NCBI GenBank assembly: GCA_947167345.1
Contig: CAMVHR010000006.1
Location: forward strand, 1-64,000
Source: an uncultured Treponema sp.
Lineage (GTDB): Bacteria; Spirochaetota; Spirochaetia; Treponematales; Treponemataceae
DNA length: 64,000 nucleotides
Reading direction: 5' to 3'
Each line of letters begins with the position of its first letter. Position 1 is the first letter of the stretch. The notes under the pieces were generated by a model, which had not been told where the DNA came from, did no database searches, and saw only the letters and a program-made list of their open reading frames with translations. Shown one piece after another: positions 21,324 through 38,698 of the stretch. A program made the translations under genes and the position numbers.

Positions 21324-22862
21324 GTGGAAAATGTCAGTACAAAGGCTGGAATGCCGGAAGGATTAACTCCATCAGAAATCGTTGAACGTCTGGATAATTA
21401 TATTATCGGGCAAAATAAGGCAAAACGCTTTGTTGCCGTTGCATTAAGAAACAGGCAGCGCCGCATTAAACTGCCTGAAGAAATAAGGGATGAAGTTGCC
21501 CCAAAAAACATTCTTATGATAGGACCAACAGGAGTTGGAAAGACAGAAATTGCGAGACGTCTTGCAAAATTGTGTGGTGCTCCTTTTTTAAAGGTTGAGG
21601 CAACAAAATATACGGAAGTAGGCTATGTCGGTCGCGATGTTGAGAGCATGGTCCGCGATTTAATGGCTGTCGGCTATAATATGGTCAAGTCAGAAATGCA
21701 GGAAAACCTCAAGGCTAAGGCAGAACCTATGGTGGAAGAGCAGTTGCTTGATTTGTTGCTTCCTGGCAGTGGTTCTAAGAAGTCTAATGCCGCAACTCCG
21801 TCAAAGAAACCTAATGTTCATATTTTAGGCAATATTTTTGGAAATGACAGTCCTGTACAGGGCAGTCTGATTCAAATTGACATGCCGAAAAAACTACCTG
21901 AAGTAGAAACTGAAAACTCTCAGGAAACGGCTCAGCCTCAAAGTTCTCCAGAACAAAAAGAAGATACGGCTGAAATGTCTGAAACTCGTGAAAAATTCAG
22001 ACAGATGCTGAGGGACGGAAAACTGGAAGACCGCATGGTTGATATTGTCGTTCATCAGCAGCCACGCTTCAGTGGCATAGAGATGATGGGTGGTGGTACT
22101 CCAGAAGATTTGGAGGCTAGCATTACAGGTTTGCAGGAAATGCTTTCGGGCGGAAGAAATAAGCGAAGATCTATGTCCGTGCACGAAGCTCGTCAGATTT
22201 TGCTTTCAGAAAATCTTGACCGCCTTACAGACAGTGATAAAGTTGCTGATATTGCAAAAGAGCGTGTTGAGCAGAGTGGCATTATCTTTATTGATGAAAT
22301 TGACAAGATTGCTACTAAAGGCGGCGAAGGTTCCCGACAGGATGTAAGCCGCGAAGGTGTCCAGCGCGACATTCTTCCGATTGTTGAAGGCAGCAATATC
22401 AATACAAAGTGGGGTGTTGTAAATACAACTCATATTCTCTTTATTGGTGCTGGTGCATTCAGTCTTTCTGCTCCAAGCGATTTGATTCCTGAGCTTCAGG
22501 GACGTTTCCCTCTTCGTGTAGAACTGGAAGCTTTGAAGAAGGAAGATTTCAAGAGAATCTTGACGGAGCCTAAGAACGCCCTTATAAAGCAGTATGAAGC
22601 ATTGCTGGGGACGGAAAATGTGACATTGAAGTTTTTAGATGAAGCTATTGACAGGATGGCTTTTATTGCCGAAGATGTCAATTCTCATGCAGAAAACATC
22701 GGTGCTCGCCGTCTGCATACTATACTTGAGACTGTGCTTGAAGAATTGAGTTTTTCTGCTGATAAGCATGCCGGAGAGACAATTACGATTGATGAAGCTT
22801 ATGTAAATGAAAAACTGAAAGGAATCGTTCAGAATCAGGATTTGGAACGTTACATTCTGTAA
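21324..22862 (+). CDS. hslU: ATP-dependent protease ATPase subunit HslU
   Basis: AAA+ unfoldase that feeds substrates to HslV. 512 residues, about 70 longer than the E. coli protein, with the excess in the I-domain (about 112-290), including a low-complexity acidic segment (about 195-225). Walker A GPTGVGKT (67-74), Walker B IIFIDEID (321-328), sensor motif near GRFPLRVEL, and the C-terminal DLERYIL that docks into HslV. It starts at GTG with GAGGAG upstream. A terminator follows directly, closing the operon. Confidence 0.96.
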   Translation: MENVSTKAGMPEGLTPSEIVERLDNYIIGQNKAKRFVAVALRNRQRRIKLPEEIRDEVAPKNILMIGPTGVGKTEIARRLAKLCGAPFLKVEATKYTEVGYVGRDVESMVRDLMAVGYNMVKSEMQENLKAKAEPMVEEQLLDLLLPGSGSKKSNAATPSKKPNVHILGNIFGNDSPVQGSLIQIDMPKKLPEVETENSQETAQPQSSPEQKEDTAEMSETREKFRQMLRDGKLEDRMVDIVVHQQPRFSGIEMMGGGTPEDLEASITGLQEMLSGGRNKRRSMSVHEARQILLSENLDRLTDSDKVADIAKERVEQSGIIFIDEIDKIATKGGEGSRQDVSREGVQRDILPIVEGSNINTKWGVVNTTHILFIGAGAFSLSAPSDLIPELQGRFPLRVELEALKKEDFKRILTEPKNALIKQYEALLGTENVTLKFLDEAIDRMAFIAEDVNSHAENIGARRLHTILETVLEELSFSADKHAGETITIDEAYVNEKLKGIVQNQDLERYIL

Positions 22863-22867
22863 TGCTG

Positions 22868-22904
22868 AAAAAGCCTTGCAAATTTCTTTGCAAGGCTTTT
22901 TTTA
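22868..22904 (+). terminator. Terminator after hslU
   Basis: AAAAAGCCTTGCAAA (22868-22882) pairs with TTTGCAAGGCTTTTT (22887-22901) around a 4-nt loop and runs into more T residues. It separates the division-protease operon from the flagellar genes. Confidence 0.92.
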
Positions 22905-22924
22905 TGTTTTCTAAAGATAATATA

Positions 22925-22951
22925 TAAAGTTAATAGATTATTTTCCGATAA
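22925..22951 (+). promoter_or_regulatory. Sigma28 (FliA)-type promoter of flgB
   Basis: TAAAGTTA (22925-22932), 11 nt, TCCGATAA (22944-22951). This matches TAAAGTTT-N11-GCCGATAA at 14 of 16 positions with exact spacing. The ATG of flgB begins 7 nt after the element, so the transcript would start at or next to the ATG. The AAGGA that looks like a ribosome site overlaps the -10 element and would not be transcribed from this promoter. Confidence 0.7.
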
Positions 22952-22958
22952 GGAAAAT

Positions 22959-23387
22959 ATGGGAATGAATAGTTTTGTAAATTCAGTAGATTTGCTTCAT
23001 AGGGAACTTGATGTTCAGAGTTTGAGGTATCAGGTGACGGCAAATAATATTGCCAACAGTGAAGTACCTAACTATAAGAGGCAGAGCGTAAACTTTGAAT
23101 CAGAGTTGAAAAAGGCTTTTGAATCTCGCGATAATGAACATAATTCATTTAAGATGATTACGACGGATGAGCGTCATATTCAGAGTGAGACTCCTCGTGA
23201 CTGGAGAAAAGTTGAACCTAGGCGTACTACTGATTATTTAACTACTTCCAAGGCAAACGGAAATAACGTTGATGCAGAAGAAGAAGCAATGAATCTTGTT
23301 CAGATTCAGATGCAGTATAGGCTTTTAACTCAGCTTGAAAGCTTTGAGTTTGGTCAGATAACGACAGCAATGAAATCAGTACGTTGA
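22959..23387 (+). CDS. flgB: Flagellar basal-body rod protein FlgB
   Basis: Proximal rod subunit of the periplasmic flagellar motor, 142 residues. The rod/hook family N-terminal motif LRYQVTANNIANSEVPNYKR (about 22-41) is intact. The C-terminal helix carries NLVQIQMQYRLLTQ. The start could be ATG 22959 or the in-frame ATG 22965; the second fits homologues beginning MNSF. First gene of the flgB-flgC-fliE set, separated from hslU by a terminator and preceded by a sigma28-type promoter. Confidence 0.95.
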   Translation: MGMNSFVNSVDLLHRELDVQSLRYQVTANNIANSEVPNYKRQSVNFESELKKAFESRDNEHNSFKMITTDERHIQSETPRDWRKVEPRRTTDYLTTSKANGNNVDAEEEAMNLVQIQMQYRLLTQLESFEFGQITTAMKSVR

Positions 23388-23408: not shown

Positions 23409-23867
23409 ATGGGTCTTTACACAAGTATTAACATAGCTGCAACAGGAATGAGTGCTGAACGTCTTAGAACGGATGTTATCAGCAACAATATTGCGAATGC
23501 TTCCACGACTCGTACGCAGGACGGTGGTGTATACAGAAAGCAGACTGTTATATTTGAGCCTGTCGCTTCAAAAAATCCTACATGGCGTCTTCCTTTTACA
23601 GATGCTTCTCAGGATAATGGTCCTGGAAAGGGAGTCCGTGTAAGGGAAATTGTAAAAGATACAACTCAGGGAAGAATGGTTTATGATCCTGATCATCCTG
23701 ATGCCATAAAATCAGGTCCTAACAAAGGATATGTTGAGTATCCTAATGTTAACATAGTAAATGAAATGGTTGATATGATTAGTGCTAACCGTGCTTATGA
23801 GGCAAACAGTGCTGTTATAGAAGGCAGCAAGGATATGTTTTCATCTGCACTGAATATTGCACAGTAA
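23409..23867 (+). CDS. flgC: Flagellar basal-body rod protein FlgC
   Basis: Second proximal rod subunit, 152 residues. The ANNIAN-type motif reads SNNIANASTTRT (about 29-40), and the C-terminal family block NIVNEMVDMISANRAYEAN is present. AGGAGC about 6 nt upstream supports the start. It lies 21 nt after flgB and 15 nt before fliE; the three genes are conserved as a unit in many flagellated bacteria. Confidence 0.96.
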   Translation: MGLYTSINIAATGMSAERLRTDVISNNIANASTTRTQDGGVYRKQTVIFEPVASKNPTWRLPFTDASQDNGPGKGVRVREIVKDTTQGRMVYDPDHPDAIKSGPNKGYVEYPNVNIVNEMVDMISANRAYEANSAVIEGSKDMFSSALNIAQ

Positions 23868-23882
23868 TAGGGGTTATCATAT

Positions 23883-24218
23883 ATGGACTTTACAATAGGT
23901 TCGCTTGAATTAAACAGAAGTAATCCTGCTCACCTTGGAACAGCTCCTCTTATTGATTCCTTTGGCGGAGAAAAAAAGGCTTCTGTTGAAAAATCAAAGG
24001 GAAGCTTTGAAAATTATCTGCTTGCTGCTGTTGAAGAACTTAACGGACAGCAGACTGAAGTTGGAAAGCTACAGGAACAGCTTATTACAGATCCTGACAG
24101 TGTTGACATTCATGATGTTACAATTGCAATGGCAAAAGCACAGATGTCCCTAAATCTTGCTCAGACTGTCATTGACCGTGTAATAACTGGATGGAATGAC
24201 CTGTCTCAGACTAGATAA
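23883..24218 (+). CDS. fliE: Flagellar hook-basal body complex protein FliE
   Basis: Small rod-MS ring adapter, 111 residues. Conserved C-terminal block HDVTIAMAKAQMSLNLAQTV (78-97) followed by the usual alpha-helical end; the N-terminal third is variable. GGGG about 10 nt upstream is a weak ribosome site. A stem-loop and a promoter lie between it and fliF. Confidence 0.93.
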   Translation: MDFTIGSLELNRSNPAHLGTAPLIDSFGGEKKASVEKSKGSFENYLLAAVEELNGQQTEVGKLQEQLITDPDSVDIHDVTIAMAKAQMSLNLAQTVIDRVITGWNDLSQTR

Positions 24219-24396: not shown

Positions 24397-26115
24397 ATGA
24401 ACGAATGGTTCAAAAATTTTTCAAAAACCATTAAAGAAAAGTGGGGAAAGTGGACAATCGTCCAGAAAGGCATTTTAATCGGTATATTCGTTGTCATCAT
24501 AGCAGGAATTGTTATGTTGGCTGCCTTTTCTTCAAAACCAACAACAGTCCGTCTTTTTAACAAGGCCATTACTGATGAGGTCGAGCGAGATCGCATACTC
24601 ACGCGTCTTGATCAGGATAATGTTAAGGCTTATGTTTCTTCAGACGGTTATATTTCCGTTGAAACAGAAGGTATTGCAAAAAAATGGCGAAGCAAGCTCA
24701 TCGCTGAAGGTTATGAGCCGTCTGGTATTGATGCATACCAGCTTTTTGATGTAAGCAGATGGACTCGCAATGACTTTGACGACAAAGTAAACTGGCAGCG
24801 TGCCACTACAGCAGCTCTTGAGGAGCATCTTAAGCAGCTTGACGGCATTCAGCAGGCTAAAGTTATGCTTTCATTGCCAGATGATGCTTTGTTTGCTTCT
24901 GATCAGAAGCCTGTAACTGCAAGTGTTGTTCTTTATGCTCGTGGCGGTAGTGATGTTTTGCAGAGTAAAAAGTCTGTGCAGGGAATTGAGCATCTTATAA
25001 TGCGCAGTGTTGAAGGCCTCACAAGAGATAATATTACTATAGTAGACGGTAGTACAAATCTTGAAATCAATGATTTTGATGGAATGGAAGAAACTGACCG
25101 CATAAATAATATACAGAAAGAACAGAAGGTTATTCAGAAGCTTGAAGCAGAGCGTTCTAGTGCTATTCTTGCTGCCCTTCAGGCAACTTATGGTGTTGAT
25201 CGTGTACGTGTTGCAACAATAAAGATTAAGATGGACATGTCCAAGCGATCTGTTTCAAAGAAAGAGTATACGGCTCCTACAATAGAAGAAGACAACCCGA
25301 ATACTCCGTATAATGACGGTAAGAAAGCTGAAAATGGATTTATATTGTCAGAGGAAACTGTTACCAAGTCATTTACAGGAACAGGATATAATCCAGAAGG
25401 GCCTGCTGGCGTCCAAGGCCAGAATCCTCCTGCATATTCTGACATGTCCAATGTAATAGGAAACTCTACGGAGAACGGAGCAAAACGTAATTATGTTCTC
25501 AATGAAAAGAGTTTGGTAGAAGATGAAAGTCCTTCAATTGACAGCATATCAGTTTCTGTTAACGTTGACGGTACATGGAAATATCCGTTGTATGACGAAA
25601 AGGGCAATATCCGGCTTAGTTCAAGCGGTGGATATGAGCGTGAGTATATTCCAGTACCAGAAGAAGATTTGAAGCAGGTTGTAAGACTTGTTCAAGGTGC
25701 TATTGGTTACGATAAACAGCGCGGAGATATTGTAGAAGTTACAAGCCTGCAGATTGACCGTACGGAACAGTTCCGTAGGGAAGATGAAGCATTCATAAAG
25801 TCTCAGCAGACAAAGAAGATGTTCTTCTTTATCTTGATTGGTATTGCCGTTGTCCTTGTTACATTCATTGTATTCCGCATTATCAGTCGTGAAATTGAAC
25901 GCCGCAGACGTCTTCGTGAAGAAGAACTGTTGCGCAGACAGCAGGAAGAACGCGAACGTGCTCTTTGGGATGCAAAGAACGAAGGCATGGAAGTTTCTAT
26001 GACTGTAGAAGAAAGAAAGCGCCAGGAGCTTGCAGAAAACGCTATTGCTCTTGCAAAAGAGCATCCTGAAGACGTTGCAATGCTTATTAGAACTTGGCTT
26101 AGAGAGGAGGCTTAA
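24397..26115 (+). CDS. fliF: Flagellar MS-ring protein FliF
   Basis: Membrane ring that nucleates flagellar assembly, 572 residues. First transmembrane helix at about 26-48, ring-building motifs with VETEGIAKKWRSKLIAEGYEP, a hypervariable segment (about 310-370), second transmembrane helix near 470-490, then a charged cytoplasmic tail ending EDVAMLIRTWLREE that binds FliG. A very strong ribosome site (GGGAGGGGAAG) precedes the ATG. First gene of a tight run to fliJ, with fliG starting 3 nt after its stop. Confidence 0.96.
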   Translation: MNEWFKNFSKTIKEKWGKWTIVQKGILIGIFVVIIAGIVMLAAFSSKPTTVRLFNKAITDEVERDRILTRLDQDNVKAYVSSDGYISVETEGIAKKWRSKLIAEGYEPSGIDAYQLFDVSRWTRNDFDDKVNWQRATTAALEEHLKQLDGIQQAKVMLSLPDDALFASDQKPVTASVVLYARGGSDVLQSKKSVQGIEHLIMRSVEGLTRDNITIVDGSTNLEINDFDGMEETDRINNIQKEQKVIQKLEAERSSAILAALQATYGVDRVRVATIKIKMDMSKRSVSKKEYTAPTIEEDNPNTPYNDGKKAENGFILSEETVTKSFTGTGYNPEGPAGVQGQNPPAYSDMSNVIGNSTENGAKRNYVLNEKSLVEDESPSIDSISVSVNVDGTWKYPLYDEKGNIRLSSSGGYEREYIPVPEEDLKQVVRLVQGAIGYDKQRGDIVEVTSLQIDRTEQFRREDEAFIKSQQTKKMFFFILIGIAVVLVTFIVFRIISREIERRRRLREEELLRRQQEERERALWDAKNEGMEVSMTVEERKRQELAENAIALAKEHPEDVAMLIRTWLREEA

Positions 26116-26118
26116 TAT

Positions 26119-27210
26119 ATGGCTGATGCAGCAGAAAGCCACATCAAACAGCCAATTAAACAGGCTGGCGGTGGTAATAGCGGAAAGAAAAAAGGCGGCT
26201 TAAAGGACTATAAAAGCCTTACTGGCCGTCAGAAAGCAGCTATTTTCTTAGTCTCTTTGGGAAGTGAAGTTTCTTCTGAAGTCATGAAACATCTTCGTGA
26301 AGATGAAGTTGAAACTTTGACATTTGAAATAGCTCGTCTTGATACAATTGATGCAGATTTTAAGGATCAGGTTCTTGAAGAATTTCAGGAGTTGATGAAA
26401 GCACAGAACTTTATCACTACAGGTGGTATTGACTATGCTCGCGAACTTCTTGAAAAATCTTTGGGAAGCCAGAAAGCTATTGATATTATCAACAGGCTTA
26501 CAAGCAGCCTTCAGGTTCGTCCGTTTGACTTTATCCGAAGAACAGACCCTGCTCACTTGCTGAACTTTGTCCAGCAGGAATATCCGCAGACTATAGCCCT
26601 TATTTTGGCATATCTTGAGCCTGCAAAAGCTGCTACAATTCTTCAAAACCTTCCAGAAGACATTCAGCCGGAAGTTTCAAAACGTCTTGCTACAATGGAC
26701 CGTACATCTCCTGATGTTTTGCGTGAAGTTGAGCGTGTTCTTGAAAAGAAACTGTCAACTCTTTCTAGCGAAGACTACACTGCTGCTGGTGGTGTTGATG
26801 CAATCGTTGAAATCCTTAACCTTGTTGATCGTTCTTCTGAGAAGGCTATTATTGAAACTCTTGAAGAAGACGATCCTGAGCTTGCAGAGGAAATCAAGAA
26901 GAGAATGTTCGTCTTCGAAGATATTGTTATGCTTGACGACCGTGCTATTCAGAAAGTTCTGCGTGAAGTTGACCAGCAGGAACTTGCAAAAGCCCTTAAG
27001 GCTGTTGATACGGAAGTTCAGGATAAGATTTTCCGCAACATGTCTAAGCGTGCTGCAAGTATGCTTAAGGAAGATATGGAATTCATGGGTCCTGTACGTC
27101 TGAAGGATGTTGAGGAAGCCCAGCAGAAGATTGTTTCAGTAATCAGACGTCTTGAAGACAGTGGTGAAATTGTTATTGCCCGTTCTGGTGATGATGAACT
27201 TGTAGAATAG
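26119..27210 (+). CDS. fliG: Flagellar motor switch protein FliG
   Basis: Rotor protein that couples stator force to rotation and sets direction. 363 residues: a basic, Gly-rich N-terminal extension (about 1-30), N-domain LTGRQKAAIFLVSLG, middle domain with EYPQTIAL (His of the usual EHPQ replaced by Tyr), and C-terminal torque domain with MFVFEDIVMLDDRAIQKVLREVD holding the charged helix. It directly follows fliF. Spirochaetes often carry two fliG genes; this operon copy should be the motor-active one. Confidence 0.96.
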   Translation: MADAAESHIKQPIKQAGGGNSGKKKGGLKDYKSLTGRQKAAIFLVSLGSEVSSEVMKHLREDEVETLTFEIARLDTIDADFKDQVLEEFQELMKAQNFITTGGIDYARELLEKSLGSQKAIDIINRLTSSLQVRPFDFIRRTDPAHLLNFVQQEYPQTIALILAYLEPAKAATILQNLPEDIQPEVSKRLATMDRTSPDVLREVERVLEKKLSTLSSEDYTAAGGVDAIVEILNLVDRSSEKAIIETLEEDDPELAEEIKKRMFVFEDIVMLDDRAIQKVLREVDQQELAKALKAVDTEVQDKIFRNMSKRAASMLKEDMEFMGPVRLKDVEEAQQKIVSVIRRLEDSGEIVIARSGDDELVE

Positions 27211-27220
27211 GAGTAAAAGT

Positions 27221-28153
27221 ATGGCCCAGACCGTATTCAGATCTAATCAAATAAACAAGATTGACGGGGAAATGATGTTTACACTTCCACGTCCGTTTAC
27301 CACTGTAGTTGAAGAACCAGAAGAAAAAGAGCCTGAATATACTGGACCAACTGTGGAAGACCTTAAGCGCGAGGCTGAGGAATTCAAGGTAAAATGGGAA
27401 GCTGAAAAGGCTGAGATGCTTGCAAATGCAAATAATGAAGCTGCCCAAATTATTCAGAAAGCTCAGGACACAGCATTTGAGGAAATAAAGCATCAGAGTG
27501 ATGAAGCTTCTGTTATAAAGAATGGTGCAAAAGAAGAAGCTTCTTCTATTATAGAGGATGCCAAAAAGCAGGCCGAAAAAATAATAGCTGAAGCAAAAGC
27601 TCAGGAACAGGAAATTATTTCCAAGGCAGAATCCGAAGGTCTTAAGCAGGGACGTGAAGAAGGCTTTACTAATGGAAAAAATGAAGTAGAGCGTCTTGTT
27701 GAGCGCATGCATAAGATAATTGATTCTGTTCAGGATAAGCGTCAGGAAATCCTTGATAATACAGAACAGCAAATTGTAGACCTTGTAATTCTTATGACAC
27801 GTAAGGTTGTCAAGATTATGAGTGACAATCAGAAAAGTGTCATCATGGCTAATGTCGTACAGGCTTTGAAAAAAGTTAAGGGACGTGGTGATGTTACACT
27901 TCGTGTAAATCTTTCTGATGTCAAACTGACAACTGATCACGTTCAGGATTTTATTAAGGAAGTTGAAAATATTAAGAATATAGCTATTGTTGAAGATAGT
28001 TCTGTGGAAAAAGGCGGTTGTATTGTTGAAACTGACTTTGGTGCAGTTGATGCTCGTATTGCCAGCCAGCTTTCAGAACTTGAAACAAAGATTCTTGAAG
28101 TTTCTCCTATTAAGACTGTTAATAAGTCTGACGTAAAGAACCCTGATAACTGA
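27221..28153 (+). CDS. fliH: Flagellar assembly protein FliH
   Basis: Peripheral regulator of the export ATPase, 310 residues. Long coiled coil rich in A, E and K (about 65-165) with repeats of the kind AEKIIAEAKAQEQEIISKAE, followed by the C-terminal domain that binds FliI (LVILMTRKVVKIM, VERGG-like VEKGGCIVETDFGAVDARI). Located between fliG and fliI as expected. The last codons are 5 nt from fliI. Confidence 0.92.
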   Translation: MAQTVFRSNQINKIDGEMMFTLPRPFTTVVEEPEEKEPEYTGPTVEDLKREAEEFKVKWEAEKAEMLANANNEAAQIIQKAQDTAFEEIKHQSDEASVIKNGAKEEASSIIEDAKKQAEKIIAEAKAQEQEIISKAESEGLKQGREEGFTNGKNEVERLVERMHKIIDSVQDKRQEILDNTEQQIVDLVILMTRKVVKIMSDNQKSVIMANVVQALKKVKGRGDVTLRVNLSDVKLTTDHVQDFIKEVENIKNIAIVEDSSVEKGGCIVETDFGAVDARIASQLSELETKILEVSPIKTVNKSDVKNPDN

Positions 28154-28158
28154 TAGAT

Positions 28159-29523
28159 ATGGATTCTCTTTCTTTTTTCGATAAGTACATAAAAACTGTT
28201 AACCGCACAGAAACAATAAAGTACAGAGGTGTCATAACTGCAGTAAAGGGACTTATGATAGAAAGTAAAGGTCCTCGCAGCGTTATGGGCGAAATCTGTA
28301 AGATTGTAATTCCAAGTTCTGGTACAACTTTGCTTGCCGAAGTTGTCGGCTTGGAAGGTACAACCGTGCGTCTAATGGCATTCGGTGATACAAAAGGAAT
28401 AGAAGTTGGCAATGAAGTAATTGCCAGTGGTCGCGTACTTGAAGTTCCTGTCGGTGAAGGTCTTTTGGGCCGTGTAATCGATGCAACAGGAAAGCCTTAT
28501 GATGAAAAAGGCGATGTCGATGCATTTGATTATTATCCGGCAATAGCAAGTCCTCCTAATCCAATGGAGCGTAAGCCTGTAAACAAACGCATTGTTACGG
28601 GGGTTAGAGCCATAGATTCCCTGCTGGCTGTAGGCAAAGGCCAGCGAATTGGAATATTTGCCGGTAGTGGTGTTGGAAAAAGTACACTCATGGGCATGAT
28701 AGCCCGAAATACAAATGCAGATATAAATGTTATTGGTCTTGTTGGTGAGCGTGGTCGTGAAGTAAAAGACTTTATAAACCGGGATTTGGGTGTTGAAGGA
28801 TTGAAACGTTCTGTCCTTGTTGTTTCCACAAGTGACCAGCCTTCAATTGCTCGTCTTAGGGCAGCTTATGTTACAACTGCCATTGCAGAATATTTCAGGG
28901 ATAAAGGAAAAGATGTAATGCTTATGATTGACAGTGTTACCCGTTTTGCCCATGCCCAGCGTGAAATAGGTCTTGCTACTGGTGAACCTCCTGCCCAGCG
29001 TGGTTATCCTCCTAGTGTATTTGATATGCTTCCTAAGCTTTTGGAACGGACTGGAACAAACTCAAAAGGTAGCATTACCGCTTTTTATACCGTACTTGTT
29101 GACGGTGATGATATGGATGAACCTATTGCAGATAAGGTTCGAGGAACACTTGATGGTCATATTGTCCTTCGACGTTCTCTCGCACAAAAGCAGCACTATC
29201 CTGCAATCGATGTTCTTTCCAGCATAAGTCGTCTGCACAAGCGTGTATCTGGTCCTGTCACATTAAAAGCCGTGCAGCGTGTAAAAAGATGGATGGCTGA
29301 CTATGCAAACCAAGAAGAAATGATTCTTGCAGGTGTATATCAGAAAGGTAATTCTCCTGAAATTGACGAAGCTATAGATAAACACCCGGCAATAGAAGAA
29401 TTTTTGTGTCAGGAAGAAAAAGACCATTGTACCATTGAAGATACGTTGAACAAACTTTCTGTCTTGACTGGTTTGGAAATTCCAGAAGAAGAGTATCAGG
29501 AAAGTCCTTCAATAACAGCTTGA
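28159..29523 (+). CDS. fliI: Flagellum-specific ATP synthase/export ATPase FliI
   Basis: Hexameric ATPase of the flagellar type III export apparatus, 454 residues, related to F1 beta. Walker A GIFAGSGVGKSTLMG (about 168-182), GERGREVKDF, Walker B VMLMIDSVTRFA (about 254-265) and the QRGYPPSVFDMLPKLLER signature are complete. It starts with ATG shortly after fliH without a clear ribosome site, so translation is probably coupled. fliJ follows after 9 nt. Confidence 0.96.
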   Translation: MDSLSFFDKYIKTVNRTETIKYRGVITAVKGLMIESKGPRSVMGEICKIVIPSSGTTLLAEVVGLEGTTVRLMAFGDTKGIEVGNEVIASGRVLEVPVGEGLLGRVIDATGKPYDEKGDVDAFDYYPAIASPPNPMERKPVNKRIVTGVRAIDSLLAVGKGQRIGIFAGSGVGKSTLMGMIARNTNADINVIGLVGERGREVKDFINRDLGVEGLKRSVLVVSTSDQPSIARLRAAYVTTAIAEYFRDKGKDVMLMIDSVTRFAHAQREIGLATGEPPAQRGYPPSVFDMLPKLLERTGTNSKGSITAFYTVLVDGDDMDEPIADKVRGTLDGHIVLRRSLAQKQHYPAIDVLSSISRLHKRVSGPVTLKAVQRVKRWMADYANQEEMILAGVYQKGNSPEIDEAIDKHPAIEEFLCQEEKDHCTIEDTLNKLSVLTGLEIPEEEYQESPSITA

Positions 29524-29532
29524 AAAGGATAA

Positions 29533-29973
29533 ATGAAGAAATTCCATTATTCACTGCAAAAGATTCTTGACCTGCGTGAGTTTGAATTAAAACAGGCAGA
29601 GATGGAGCTTGGAAAGGTAAATGCACAGATTGCTCAATTTCAGAATCAGTTGAAATCTATTGCAGATCAGAGGGTTTCAACGCAAAAAGAAATAGATTCT
29701 TCACATGATATTTCCTTTTTTGGTCAGGGACATAATTACATGCTTTTTTTAGAACAGAAAAAAGATTATTGCCTTCAGTGTATTGCAGAATTACAGGTTG
29801 AAGCCGAAAAGCGAAAAGATGTTGTACGCAAGGCTATGCAAAAAGAAAAAGTACTTGAACACCTGAAAGAATCAAAAATCAAAACATGGAAAGCTGACTG
29901 CCTTAAGGCTGAAGAACTTGTAACTGATGATGTTGTTACTGCAAAATACAATAACAGGACATCATCAGTTTAA
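29533..29973 (+). CDS. fliJ: Flagellar export chaperone FliJ
   Basis: Small coiled-coil protein, 146 residues, that acts as the central stalk of the FliH-FliI export complex. Start FHYSLQKILDLREFELKQAE is typical; the rest is a two-helix coiled coil. AAAGGA upstream supports the start. It ends 5 nt from the convergent uridine kinase-like gene and is the last gene of this flagellar run. Confidence 0.88.
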   Translation: MKKFHYSLQKILDLREFELKQAEMELGKVNAQIAQFQNQLKSIADQRVSTQKEIDSSHDISFFGQGHNYMLFLEQKKDYCLQCIAELQVEAEKRKDVVRKAMQKEKVLEHLKESKIKTWKADCLKAEELVTDDVVTAKYNNRTSSV

Positions 29974-36595: not shown

Positions 36596-38698
36596 ATGGC
36601 TGTAACAAACGAATATACTATGTCTGAGCATCTTCGTCCTGTAATCAACGTGGATTCGACAAAATGCTGCAATTGCCACAGGTGCATAAGCGTATGCCCT
36701 GTAAAGATGTGTAATAACGGTTCTGGTAACTATGTTTCCGTCAATCATGATCTTTGCATTGGATGTGGAACATGTCTAGATGCATGTGTTCATGGTGCAA
36801 GAACTGGTATTGACGATATGGAACAGTTTTTTCAGGATTTAAAAAAAGGAACCCCTATTGTTGCTATAGTAGCTCCTGCCGTCGTCGTAAACTTTAAGGG
36901 CAAAGATTTGGAGCTTAACGGATACCTTAAGTCTATAGGCGTAAAGGCTGTATTTGACGTTTCGTTCGGCGCAGAGCTTACAACCAAAAGCTATGTAGAA
37001 CAGATAAAAAATGAAAATCCGCTGGTAATGGTGTCTCAACCATGTCCGGCTCTTGTAACATTCATCGAGACTTACCGCCCTCAACTGATAAAATACCTTG
37101 CAAAACCCGACAGTCCTATGGCTCATACAGCGGAATGCATAAGGCATTTTTATCCAGAATACAGCAATTGCAAGATAGCCGCAATATCTCCTTGTTTTGC
37201 AAAAAGGCGAGAATTTGATGAAAATGGACGTGTTGACTATAACGTTACCATGAAAAATCTTGACATTTATTTTAATGAACATGGCATTAAACTGTCGGAT
37301 TATCCTAAAACTGAATATGACAATCCACCTGCAGAAAGGGCAGTCCTTTATTCAACTCCAGGAGGTCTGATGCGTACTGCCGAGCGCTTTGTTCCCGGCA
37401 TATCTGCCCAGACAAGAAAAATTGAAGGACAGCCTGCTGTATTTGAATACTTGTCAGGACTTGACAAGTCTCTTTCTTCTGGAGTCAAGCCATACTATAA
37501 GCTTGTTGACTGCCTTAACTGTGAAAAAGGTTGCAACAGGGGAGGCGGAACGACAAACAATAATATGCCTCTTGATGAGCTTGAATCTTTCGTTGAAAGC
37601 AGGGCTAATGAACGGCGCAGAATATGGAATACTCAGTCTAATGTTGCAAAAAGCTCCGCATTCAAAAAACTAGACAAAACAGTTTCCGATTACTGGAAGC
37701 CAGGCATATATGAGCGTAAATACAAAGACAGAAGTGCCATACAGAAAAACTTCATAAAAAGACCTTCAAGCGAACAGCTGCAGGAAATCTTTAACAACAT
37801 GGAAAAGCGTACCAAGGCAGATTTGTATAACTGTGGTGCATGCGGCTATAACAGTTGTGAGCAGATGGCTGTTGCAATTTTTAATGGATTAAACCGAAAG
37901 GAAAACTGCCATCATTATGTGCTTTACCTTGTAAATAAGGAACATGATCAGAAAATTTCAGAGACTGTCAGCAGCATAACAAAGGAAAGCATAAAGCTTC
38001 TTGAAGGAACAAAGAGCAATGTGGAAAGCCTTACAAAAGTCACGGAAACAATGACTCAAAATGTAGCAGCGTCTTCTTCTGCCATAGAAGATATGGTAAG
38101 TAACATTTCTACAATAAACAATATTGTTGATACGAATTTCAAGATTGTCAATGAACTGGAAGATGCTACTCAGACAGGCCGCACAAAACTTACAGAAGTT
38201 GACAAGCTTGTAGGAGACATCGAAAAAGAATCATCAGCACTCATGAAGATGAGTAGTTCCATTCAGAAAATTGCAAGCCAGACTAACATGCTTGCAATGA
38301 ATGCTGCAATCGAAGCTGCTCATGCAGGTGAATTCGGTGCAGGATTCTCTGTTGTTGCGGATGAAATACGAAAGCTTGCAGAAGATTCCGGTAGAGAAGC
38401 CAAACAGATTGGCGAAGTCCTTAAGAAAATAAAAGGCATGGTTGACGGTGCCTATGACAAGTCAAATGAAGTTAGCAGTGAGTTTGAGAATGTTGTTTCC
38501 CTAATGGAAAACGTAAAGACTCATGAAATGGAAGTAAAGACTTCCATGCAGAAGCAGAATGCGGGAAATGAACAGCTTCTGAATACTCTTGCACAGATGA
38601 AAGAAGGTGCAAGAGTCGTTGAAGCCGCAGCGTCTCATCTTAGTGCAGACACAAAGAACATCATAGAGGCTGTGCGAGATATAGGAAAGCAAAAGTAA
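36596..38698 (+). CDS. [FeFe]-hydrogenase-like domain fused to a methyl-accepting chemotaxis signalling domain
   Basis: Soluble sensor of 700 residues. Positions below count from TTG 36590, two residues earlier. Residues 26-66 hold two ferredoxin motifs ([23 protein letters not shown]). Residues 90-320 match the catalytic large-subunit domain. The H-cluster cysteines are present as C152 (SQPCP), C202 (SPCFAK), C311 and C315 ([11 protein letters not shown]), although surrounding motifs differ from TSCCPxW and MPCxxKxxE of catalytic enzymes. Residues 413-440 form another Fe-S motif (CGACGYNSC, then C440). The rest is a long coiled coil with the MCP tip [19 protein letters not shown] (563-581). 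There is no transmembrane helix. It probably reports H2 or redox state to CheA. Divergent motifs argue for sensing, not bulk catalysis. Confidence 0.88.

Follow-up and report, generated by a model that had tools for sequence, protein, structure and literature searches.

The flgB Operon and Its Upstream Region

The window (the whole stretch of 64,000 nucleotides analyzed here, from a gut Treponema) carries flgB on its + strand at 22959..23387, encoding a rod protein that matches TIGR01396 with an E value of 2.7e-35. It is followed on the same strand by flgC (23409..23867; TIGR01395), which has its own Shine-Dalgarno AGGAG, by fliE (23883..24218; TIGR00205), and by fliF, fliG, fliH, fliI and fliJ (24397..29973), the rest of the presumed transcription unit. 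On the 5' side lie hslV and hslU, with xerC- and topA-type genes further upstream. The identities of hslV, hslU and all flagellar genes from flgB to fliJ were confirmed with NCBIfam. Between hslU and flgB we found an intrinsic terminator of hslU (22867..22902, + strand) with a 16-pair stem and a T run; for the segment 22860-22910 the folding energy is -20.8 kcal/mol (z -5.3), and none of 200 shuffles folds as low. The predicted terminator insulates the flgB operon against upstream transcription, and on this evidence we rejected the idea that flgB is transcribed mainly by read-through from hslU.

A FliA-type element, TAAAGTTA-N11-TCCGATAA, occupies 22925-22951 of the + strand and ends 7 nt (22952-22958) before the first flgB ATG at 22959; a second in-frame ATG, at 22965, is the homolog of the start that reads MNSF in relatives. 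The -35 element TAAAGTTA (22925..22932), of the TAAA type and found at the same spacing in relatives, is separated by an 11-nt spacer (22933..22943) from the -10 element TCCGATAA (22944..22951), so that 20 nt separate the start of TAAA from the start of CCGA. A TAAA -35 and a CCGATAA-type -10 are therefore present at the spacing of a sigma-28 promoter. The element agrees at 14 of 16 positions with the E. coli consensus TAAAGTTT-N11-GCCGATAA. The Shine-Dalgarno-like AAGGA (22950..22954; duplex energy -5.1) shares two bases with the 3' end of the -10 element. Rechecked on the window sequence, the coordinates, spacing and match count given by the initial annotation are all correct, as are the 7-nt distance to the ATG and the overlap of the apparent ribosome site with the -10.

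In Markov-1 sequences with the make-up of the window, 0.053 matches with at most two mismatches are expected per 64 kb on both strands, or about 4e-5 when scaled to the 97-nt intergenic stretch; at three mismatches the expectation in the window rises to 0.83, which is not significant. The stricter pattern TAAAGTT-N12-NCCGATAA (14 fixed bases) has a single exact match in the 3.23-Mb genome of origin, the flgB site itself. Nevertheless, the motif is depleted in this genome at up to two mismatches (45 matches versus 81 for the reversed control), and weaker matches therefore carry no meaning alone. On sequence grounds, it is by position and conservation that the flgB site exceeds chance.

Conservation of the Promoter Geometry in the Genus

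FlgB is present in 91 of the 98 genus genomes searched, and upstream sequences were read in 89 of them, leaving out two with incomplete FlgB matches (G070 and G094). CCGA lies exactly 14 nt 5' of the flgB ATG in 56 of the 89, and 13 nt in one more; a Markov null for CCGA at a fixed offset gives a mean of 0.22 and a maximum of 3. CCGA preceded at 19-21 nt by a TAAA-like -35 is found in 85 of the 89 (null mean 4.1, maximum 13). The distance from TAAA start to CCGA start is 20 nt in 79/89, as picked by a script that chose the wrong CCGA in L045 and L124; the fixed-offset count tests the offset directly. Information content, computed over 48 non-redundant sequences, peaks at the -35, at the -10 and at the bases adjoining the ATG (mostly AGT), and sequence 5' of the -35 is unconserved. 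The genomes that begin flgB with ATG-GGN-ATG, the window included, keep the 14-nt spacing when it is measured to the first ATG. In the other 32 of the 89 genomes the promoter is located 25-119 nt upstream of flgB. The fixed distance, kept without a Shine-Dalgarno, indicates that the fused arrangement is under selection in the genus. Neither this conserved geometry in most of the genus nor the recurrence of the site at flgB across most of the phylum (see below) had been recognized in the initial annotation.

Leaders, Shine-Dalgarno Sites and the Transcription Start

The two arrangements differ sharply in their ribosome sites. An anti-Shine-Dalgarno duplex of -5 kcal/mol or lower is available in 31/32 leadered genomes versus 6/57 with a fused promoter, leaving 51 of the latter above that value and hence without a Shine-Dalgarno. 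Three of the six exceptions, L062, L104 and L115, score between -5.9 and -7.0; the remaining three are the window and its two nearest relatives, L134 and L135, in which AAGGA arises within the -10 and discriminator. Across 38 fused-promoter loci, the flgB duplex has a median of +0.1, while flgC in those genomes reaches -8.5 (p 7.6e-8); the median for leadered flgB genes is -9.3. These medians come from 80 named loci plus the window, a set overlapping the 89 genomes, in which L208 has a wrong start codon and is counted as leadered although an in-frame ATG further upstream gives it the 14-nt distance; the L203 promoter falls beyond the 110 nt read. A misassigned flgB start was considered and rejected, because all 17 aligned FlgB proteins share N2 and F4 and because, of the 143 in-frame start codons that fused-promoter genomes offer within about 25 codons, only five past codon 3 have a duplex of -6 or lower.

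To place the transcription start we used the flaB2 promoter of a T. denticola-like genome, which we take to be T. denticola ATCC 35405, where CCGA is located at -139. The flaB2 start has been mapped 124 bp from the start codon (excerpt of PMC9481697), that is 14-15 nt after the first C. Carried over to the window, this offset, calibrated on one mapped promoter from another genus of the same family with a margin of one base, would put the start on the A of the flgB ATG (22959 +/-1, + strand). The T(-1) and A(+1) conserved at this ATG in the genus alignment suit a start there. The 5' ends predicted by the initial annotation, 22957-22960, bracket this putative position. With RNA starting at 22959, AAGGA would stand 5' of the start and outside the sigma-28 transcript, and we infer that the flgB sigma-28 mRNA is leaderless to within about one base. 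This consequence, an untranscribed AAGGA and a leaderless message if RNA starts at 22959 +/-1, had been overlooked in the initial annotation.

Leaderless initiation seems plausible for this bacterium. We examined long open reading frames (ORFs) in the window plus eight further stretches of the genome of origin: a sigma-70 -10 hexamer lies 5-9 nt 5' of a start in 16 of the 34 that lack a Shine-Dalgarno, versus 2 of the 106 that have one, and 5' of 54 of 2252 internal ATGs. The candidate starts were chosen by script, and three similar cases come from repeats at L217. Elements of the TATAAT -10 type, 6-9 nt 5' of starts without a Shine-Dalgarno, are found at 36596, 40661 and 54776 of the window and at other ORFs of the same genome, and leaderless sigma-70 genes thus seem to be common in it.

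The leadered genomes have a peculiarity of their own. In 20 of the 32, the predicted 5' end consists of 1-5 nt followed by an AUG-stop, mostly GAUGUAA (shuffled mean 0.7, at most 5), and this AUG-stop sits where fused genomes have the flgB AUG. Among these relatives (L058-L113, e.g., L060, L064 and L107) the 5' AUG-stop mostly reads GAUGUAAAC; it could represent a relic or a minimal reading frame. In L065, L067, L069, L071, L185 and L187 we observed a Shine-Dalgarno-like leader AAAGGATGTCA..ATG that also resembles the CsrA-binding consensus, and some leadered relatives contain a CsrA-like GGATGT.

Distribution across the Phylum

To score more distant loci we took the best CCGATA plus TAAA pair within 110 nt 5' of flgB, which was possible for 108 of 109 phylum loci (L270 has no start codon in range); the tallies were summed by hand. 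A sigma-28-like site scoring at least 8 of 10 was found in 85 of the 104 genomes outside family f6, with 19 scoring below 8, and an individual shuffle p of 0.05 or less was obtained for 70 of these 104 loci. None of the four f6 genomes, termed Borrelia-like here for their size (1.0-1.5 Mb) and for lacking FliA, has such a site. The distribution of FliA runs parallel: 0/4 f6 genomes encode a protein above the curated cut-off, versus 14/14 of the other genomes tested. The site at flgB is thus conserved in orthologs (85/89 in the genus) and missing where FliA is missing (0/4), as expected of a sigma-28 promoter. The T. pallidum-sized genome L253 has only a degenerate sigma-28-like pair 5' of flgB (TTAA, 20 nt, TCGACAAT; score 6 of 10).

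Mapped on a 112-row tree of HslU, FlgB and FlgC, the fused state requires 4 changes, versus a shuffled mean of 37. A leadered clade of 38 rows sits inside a genus-level clade that is fused elsewhere, and the fused state also occurs in two rows from other genera (g9 and g4). In this tree fewer than half of the columns are filled in 65 of the 112 rows, and we rooted it on the rows resembling T. denticola and T. pallidum; which of the fused and leadered states gave rise to the other is our reading of the tree rather than a result. Control of flgB by sigma-28 appears to be old in spirochetes, the leaderless fusion appearing as a conserved variant, and the consequence for the order of flagellar gene classes probably extends over the phylum.

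Comparison with Known Systems

The comparisons that follow are limited to excerpts of the papers cited. In the Bacillus subtilis fla/che operon, as in the window, flgB heads an early operon with a promoter for sigma-D, the sigma-28 ortholog; PA (sigma-A) is the main promoter there, and PD3 is reported in the excerpt to have no influence on flagellar gene expression (PMC4793158). The Treponema locus differs in that no conserved sigma-70 promoter was found and in that its sigma-28 promoter is fused to the ATG. The T. denticola flaB2 promoter is also of the sigma-28 type, with TTAA, CCGATAA and 20 nt from the -35 start to CCGA, but it serves a flagellin gene through a 124-nt leader (PMC9481697). 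Unlike the fused flgB of the window, that of the T. denticola-like genome has GCCGAAAAT about 25 nt 5' of the ATG together with an AGGAG site. Leptospira interrogans is a spirochete with many mapped leaderless mRNAs (approximately 440 with leaders below 10 nt); in contrast to our locus, its motility genes are described as under-represented among these at 37 C, and its flgB leader measures 12-13 nt (PMC5243855). A 2025 review attributes to Leptospira sigma-28, in the portion consulted, only the flagellins, a sheath protein and FliS (PMC12655853). In Borrelia, flgB likewise heads a long motility operon, or superoperon, but from a sigma-70 promoter and reportedly without any sigma-28 in the organism (PMC11607428), and the four Borrelia-like genomes of our survey have neither the flgB site nor FliA. 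Outside the spirochetes, the same early gene belongs in E. coli to class 2 (flgBCDEFGHIJ), but under sigma-70 with FlhDC, and the excerpt reports no rescue of flgB by FliA overexpression (PMC4183435); C. difficile flgB uses SigA (PMC7438776). We found no report of leaderless mRNA in Treponema, nor of sigma-28 at a spirochete flgB, in the open-licence literature searched. Both parts of the arrangement thus have precedents, in PD3 of B. subtilis and the leaderless mRNAs of Leptospira, and for their combination no report was found in that literature. What is new would be a promoter fused to the start codon and kept so in relatives, giving a leaderless early flagellar message.

Interpretation and Alternative Scenarios

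In this context, we consider it quite likely that the 27-bp element is a true FliA promoter, the main one for flgB-flgC-fliE-fliF-fliG-fliH-fliI-fliJ, fused to the start codon and yielding a leaderless flgB. We envisage that sigma-28 RNA polymerase would begin the transcript at the A of the first of the two flgB ATGs (22959 +/-1), that flgB would be translated from a leaderless mRNA, beginning AUGGGAAUG and devoid of AAGGA, and that flgC and the later genes would use ordinary Shine-Dalgarno sites; the exact start, the dependence on FliA and leaderless translation are what we infer in this scheme, whereas the motif, its position and conservation, the lack of a Shine-Dalgarno in most relatives and the joint absence of site and FliA from the Borrelia-like genomes are observed. 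The fused form may go back to an earlier spirochete layout, with flgB under a sigma-28 promoter and preceded by a short leader that carried a Shine-Dalgarno, and in one large leadered subclade of the genus leader and Shine-Dalgarno would have been either regained or never lost. We count against this explanation the AAGGA in the discriminator of the window, L134 and L135, which would be usable given a start further upstream. On the same side stand the duplexes of L062, L104 and L115, the calibration of the start on one mapped promoter, the depletion of the motif at up to two mismatches, the site seen at one of three flaB-like genes, the 19 phylum genomes scoring below 8 and the failure of FliA to rescue flgB in E. 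coli.

Having noticed a sigma-28 signal at an early rod gene, the initial annotation left a choice between a different class order and a pair of promoters. The promoter at an early operon and the departure from the enteric class order are supported: its genes code for rod, MS ring, switch and export ATPase, and so it falls outside a class III (late) promoter defined by late genes only. The second promoter, on the other hand, finds little support. A pair as in B. subtilis would combine a weak sigma-70 promoter (TATAAA-like, near 22916-22928), giving a leadered mRNA with AAGGA, and sigma-28 in a minor second role. Such a scheme draws on the AT-rich TATAAA-like stretch and the AAGGA that the window and its two nearest relatives have in common, as well as on the coexistence of sigma-A PA and the minor sigma-D PD3 at B. 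subtilis flgB (PMC4793158). However, our sigma-70 scan of the + strand over 22500-22958 returned no site 5' of flgB, so that no recognizable counterpart of the sigma-70/sigma-A promoter that defines the B. subtilis type lies in that interval, although a weak non-consensus one may exist; the hslU terminator (-20.8 kcal/mol) stands between hslU and flgB; the TATAAA-like element, unlike the sigma-28 element, is conserved in the three nearest genomes alone; and in the 51 of 57 fused-promoter relatives with a duplex above -5 kcal/mol such a transcript would have no Shine-Dalgarno. We regard this arrangement as unlikely.

Less probable still, with only a slim chance in our estimate, is an ordinary leadered sigma-28 promoter starting slightly earlier (e.g., at 22950-22954), with a short leader that includes AAGGA. 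Transcription start sites can shift by one or two bases, and in the genome of origin AAGGA is well positioned for the 22959 ATG. Yet the start would have to fall inside the -10 or 1-3 nt after it, relatives with the same fixed 14 nt are mostly devoid of a Shine-Dalgarno, and the conserved T(-1) and A(+1) fit initiation at the A of the ATG. As for a chance resemblance, with flgB transcribed otherwise, the 0.83 matches expected in the window at up to three mismatches and the lack of enrichment of weak matches in the genome would speak for it; against it stand the position conserved in 85 of 89 genus genomes, the recurrence through the phylum and the intergenic expectation of 4e-5, on which we rejected it as next to impossible.

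Other Sigma-28 Sites and the Flagellar Hierarchy

The genome of origin encodes fliA (C24:17051-17728; TIGR02479, 292.1 bits versus a cut-off of 189.6). Exact TAAA-N15/16-NCCGATAA sites number 9 in the genome versus 6 in the reversed control; besides the one at flgB they include sites 5' of flgM, fliS and motA (Pfam identities), and fliL has a site with one mismatch. Among the three flaB-like genes a site is present at one only (C9:72481), as would be expected if some flagellins use sigma-70. Since fliA lies on the same strand as motA, in a close-packed gene run that starts at motA (continuity judged by eye), sigma-28 may drive its own gene. Upstream of the flgD-flgE-like ORFs on C21 (named by eye) there is no site directly 5' of the block and one inside the preceding ORF; sigma-28 is thus not shown for every early gene.

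According to the textbook flagellar hierarchy, the base is built first via another sigma factor, and sigma-28 acts only once FlgM has been exported via the completed base. Should the base operon itself need sigma-28, this FlgM checkpoint could not operate as usual and spirochetes would need another way to start. In T. denticola, FlgM has been reported to stabilize FliA, and its loss to lower flagellin expression (relayed in the consulted portion of a review, PMC12655853), which would fit a rewired circuit. We tentatively put forward, as a possibility we would not yet favor, that the whole clade is rewired: sigma-28 would switch on base and filament alike and form loops with itself and, through the flgM site, with its inhibitor, flgB would be leaderless by design via a different initiation route, and the leadered subclade would keep its 5' AUG-stop as a relic or tiny regulatory frame. 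The fused promoter would also offer a clean natural test of leaderless translation, since dozens of genomes differ in whether this first gene has a leader, and each has an ordinary flgC start as internal control.

Some further sites precede ORFs with no Pfam match. An exact sigma-28 site lies 21 nt 5' of a 130-aa ORF (L033; G000:C27:21481-21507, minus strand), possibly encoding an unknown motility protein, and another exact site precedes a 216-aa ORF (L034/L217; G000:C38:19260-19962, minus strand) that heads a flgK-flgL-like cluster, ahead of flgK. A sigma-28-like site with N16 was found 5' of a 414-aa ORF (L031/L221; G000:C14:41382-42700) divergent from a cheA-like gene block. Finally, at G000:C21:5217-5266 (L336) a sigma-28-like site is followed by GGGGGT and an ORF that is chemoreceptor-like by eye.
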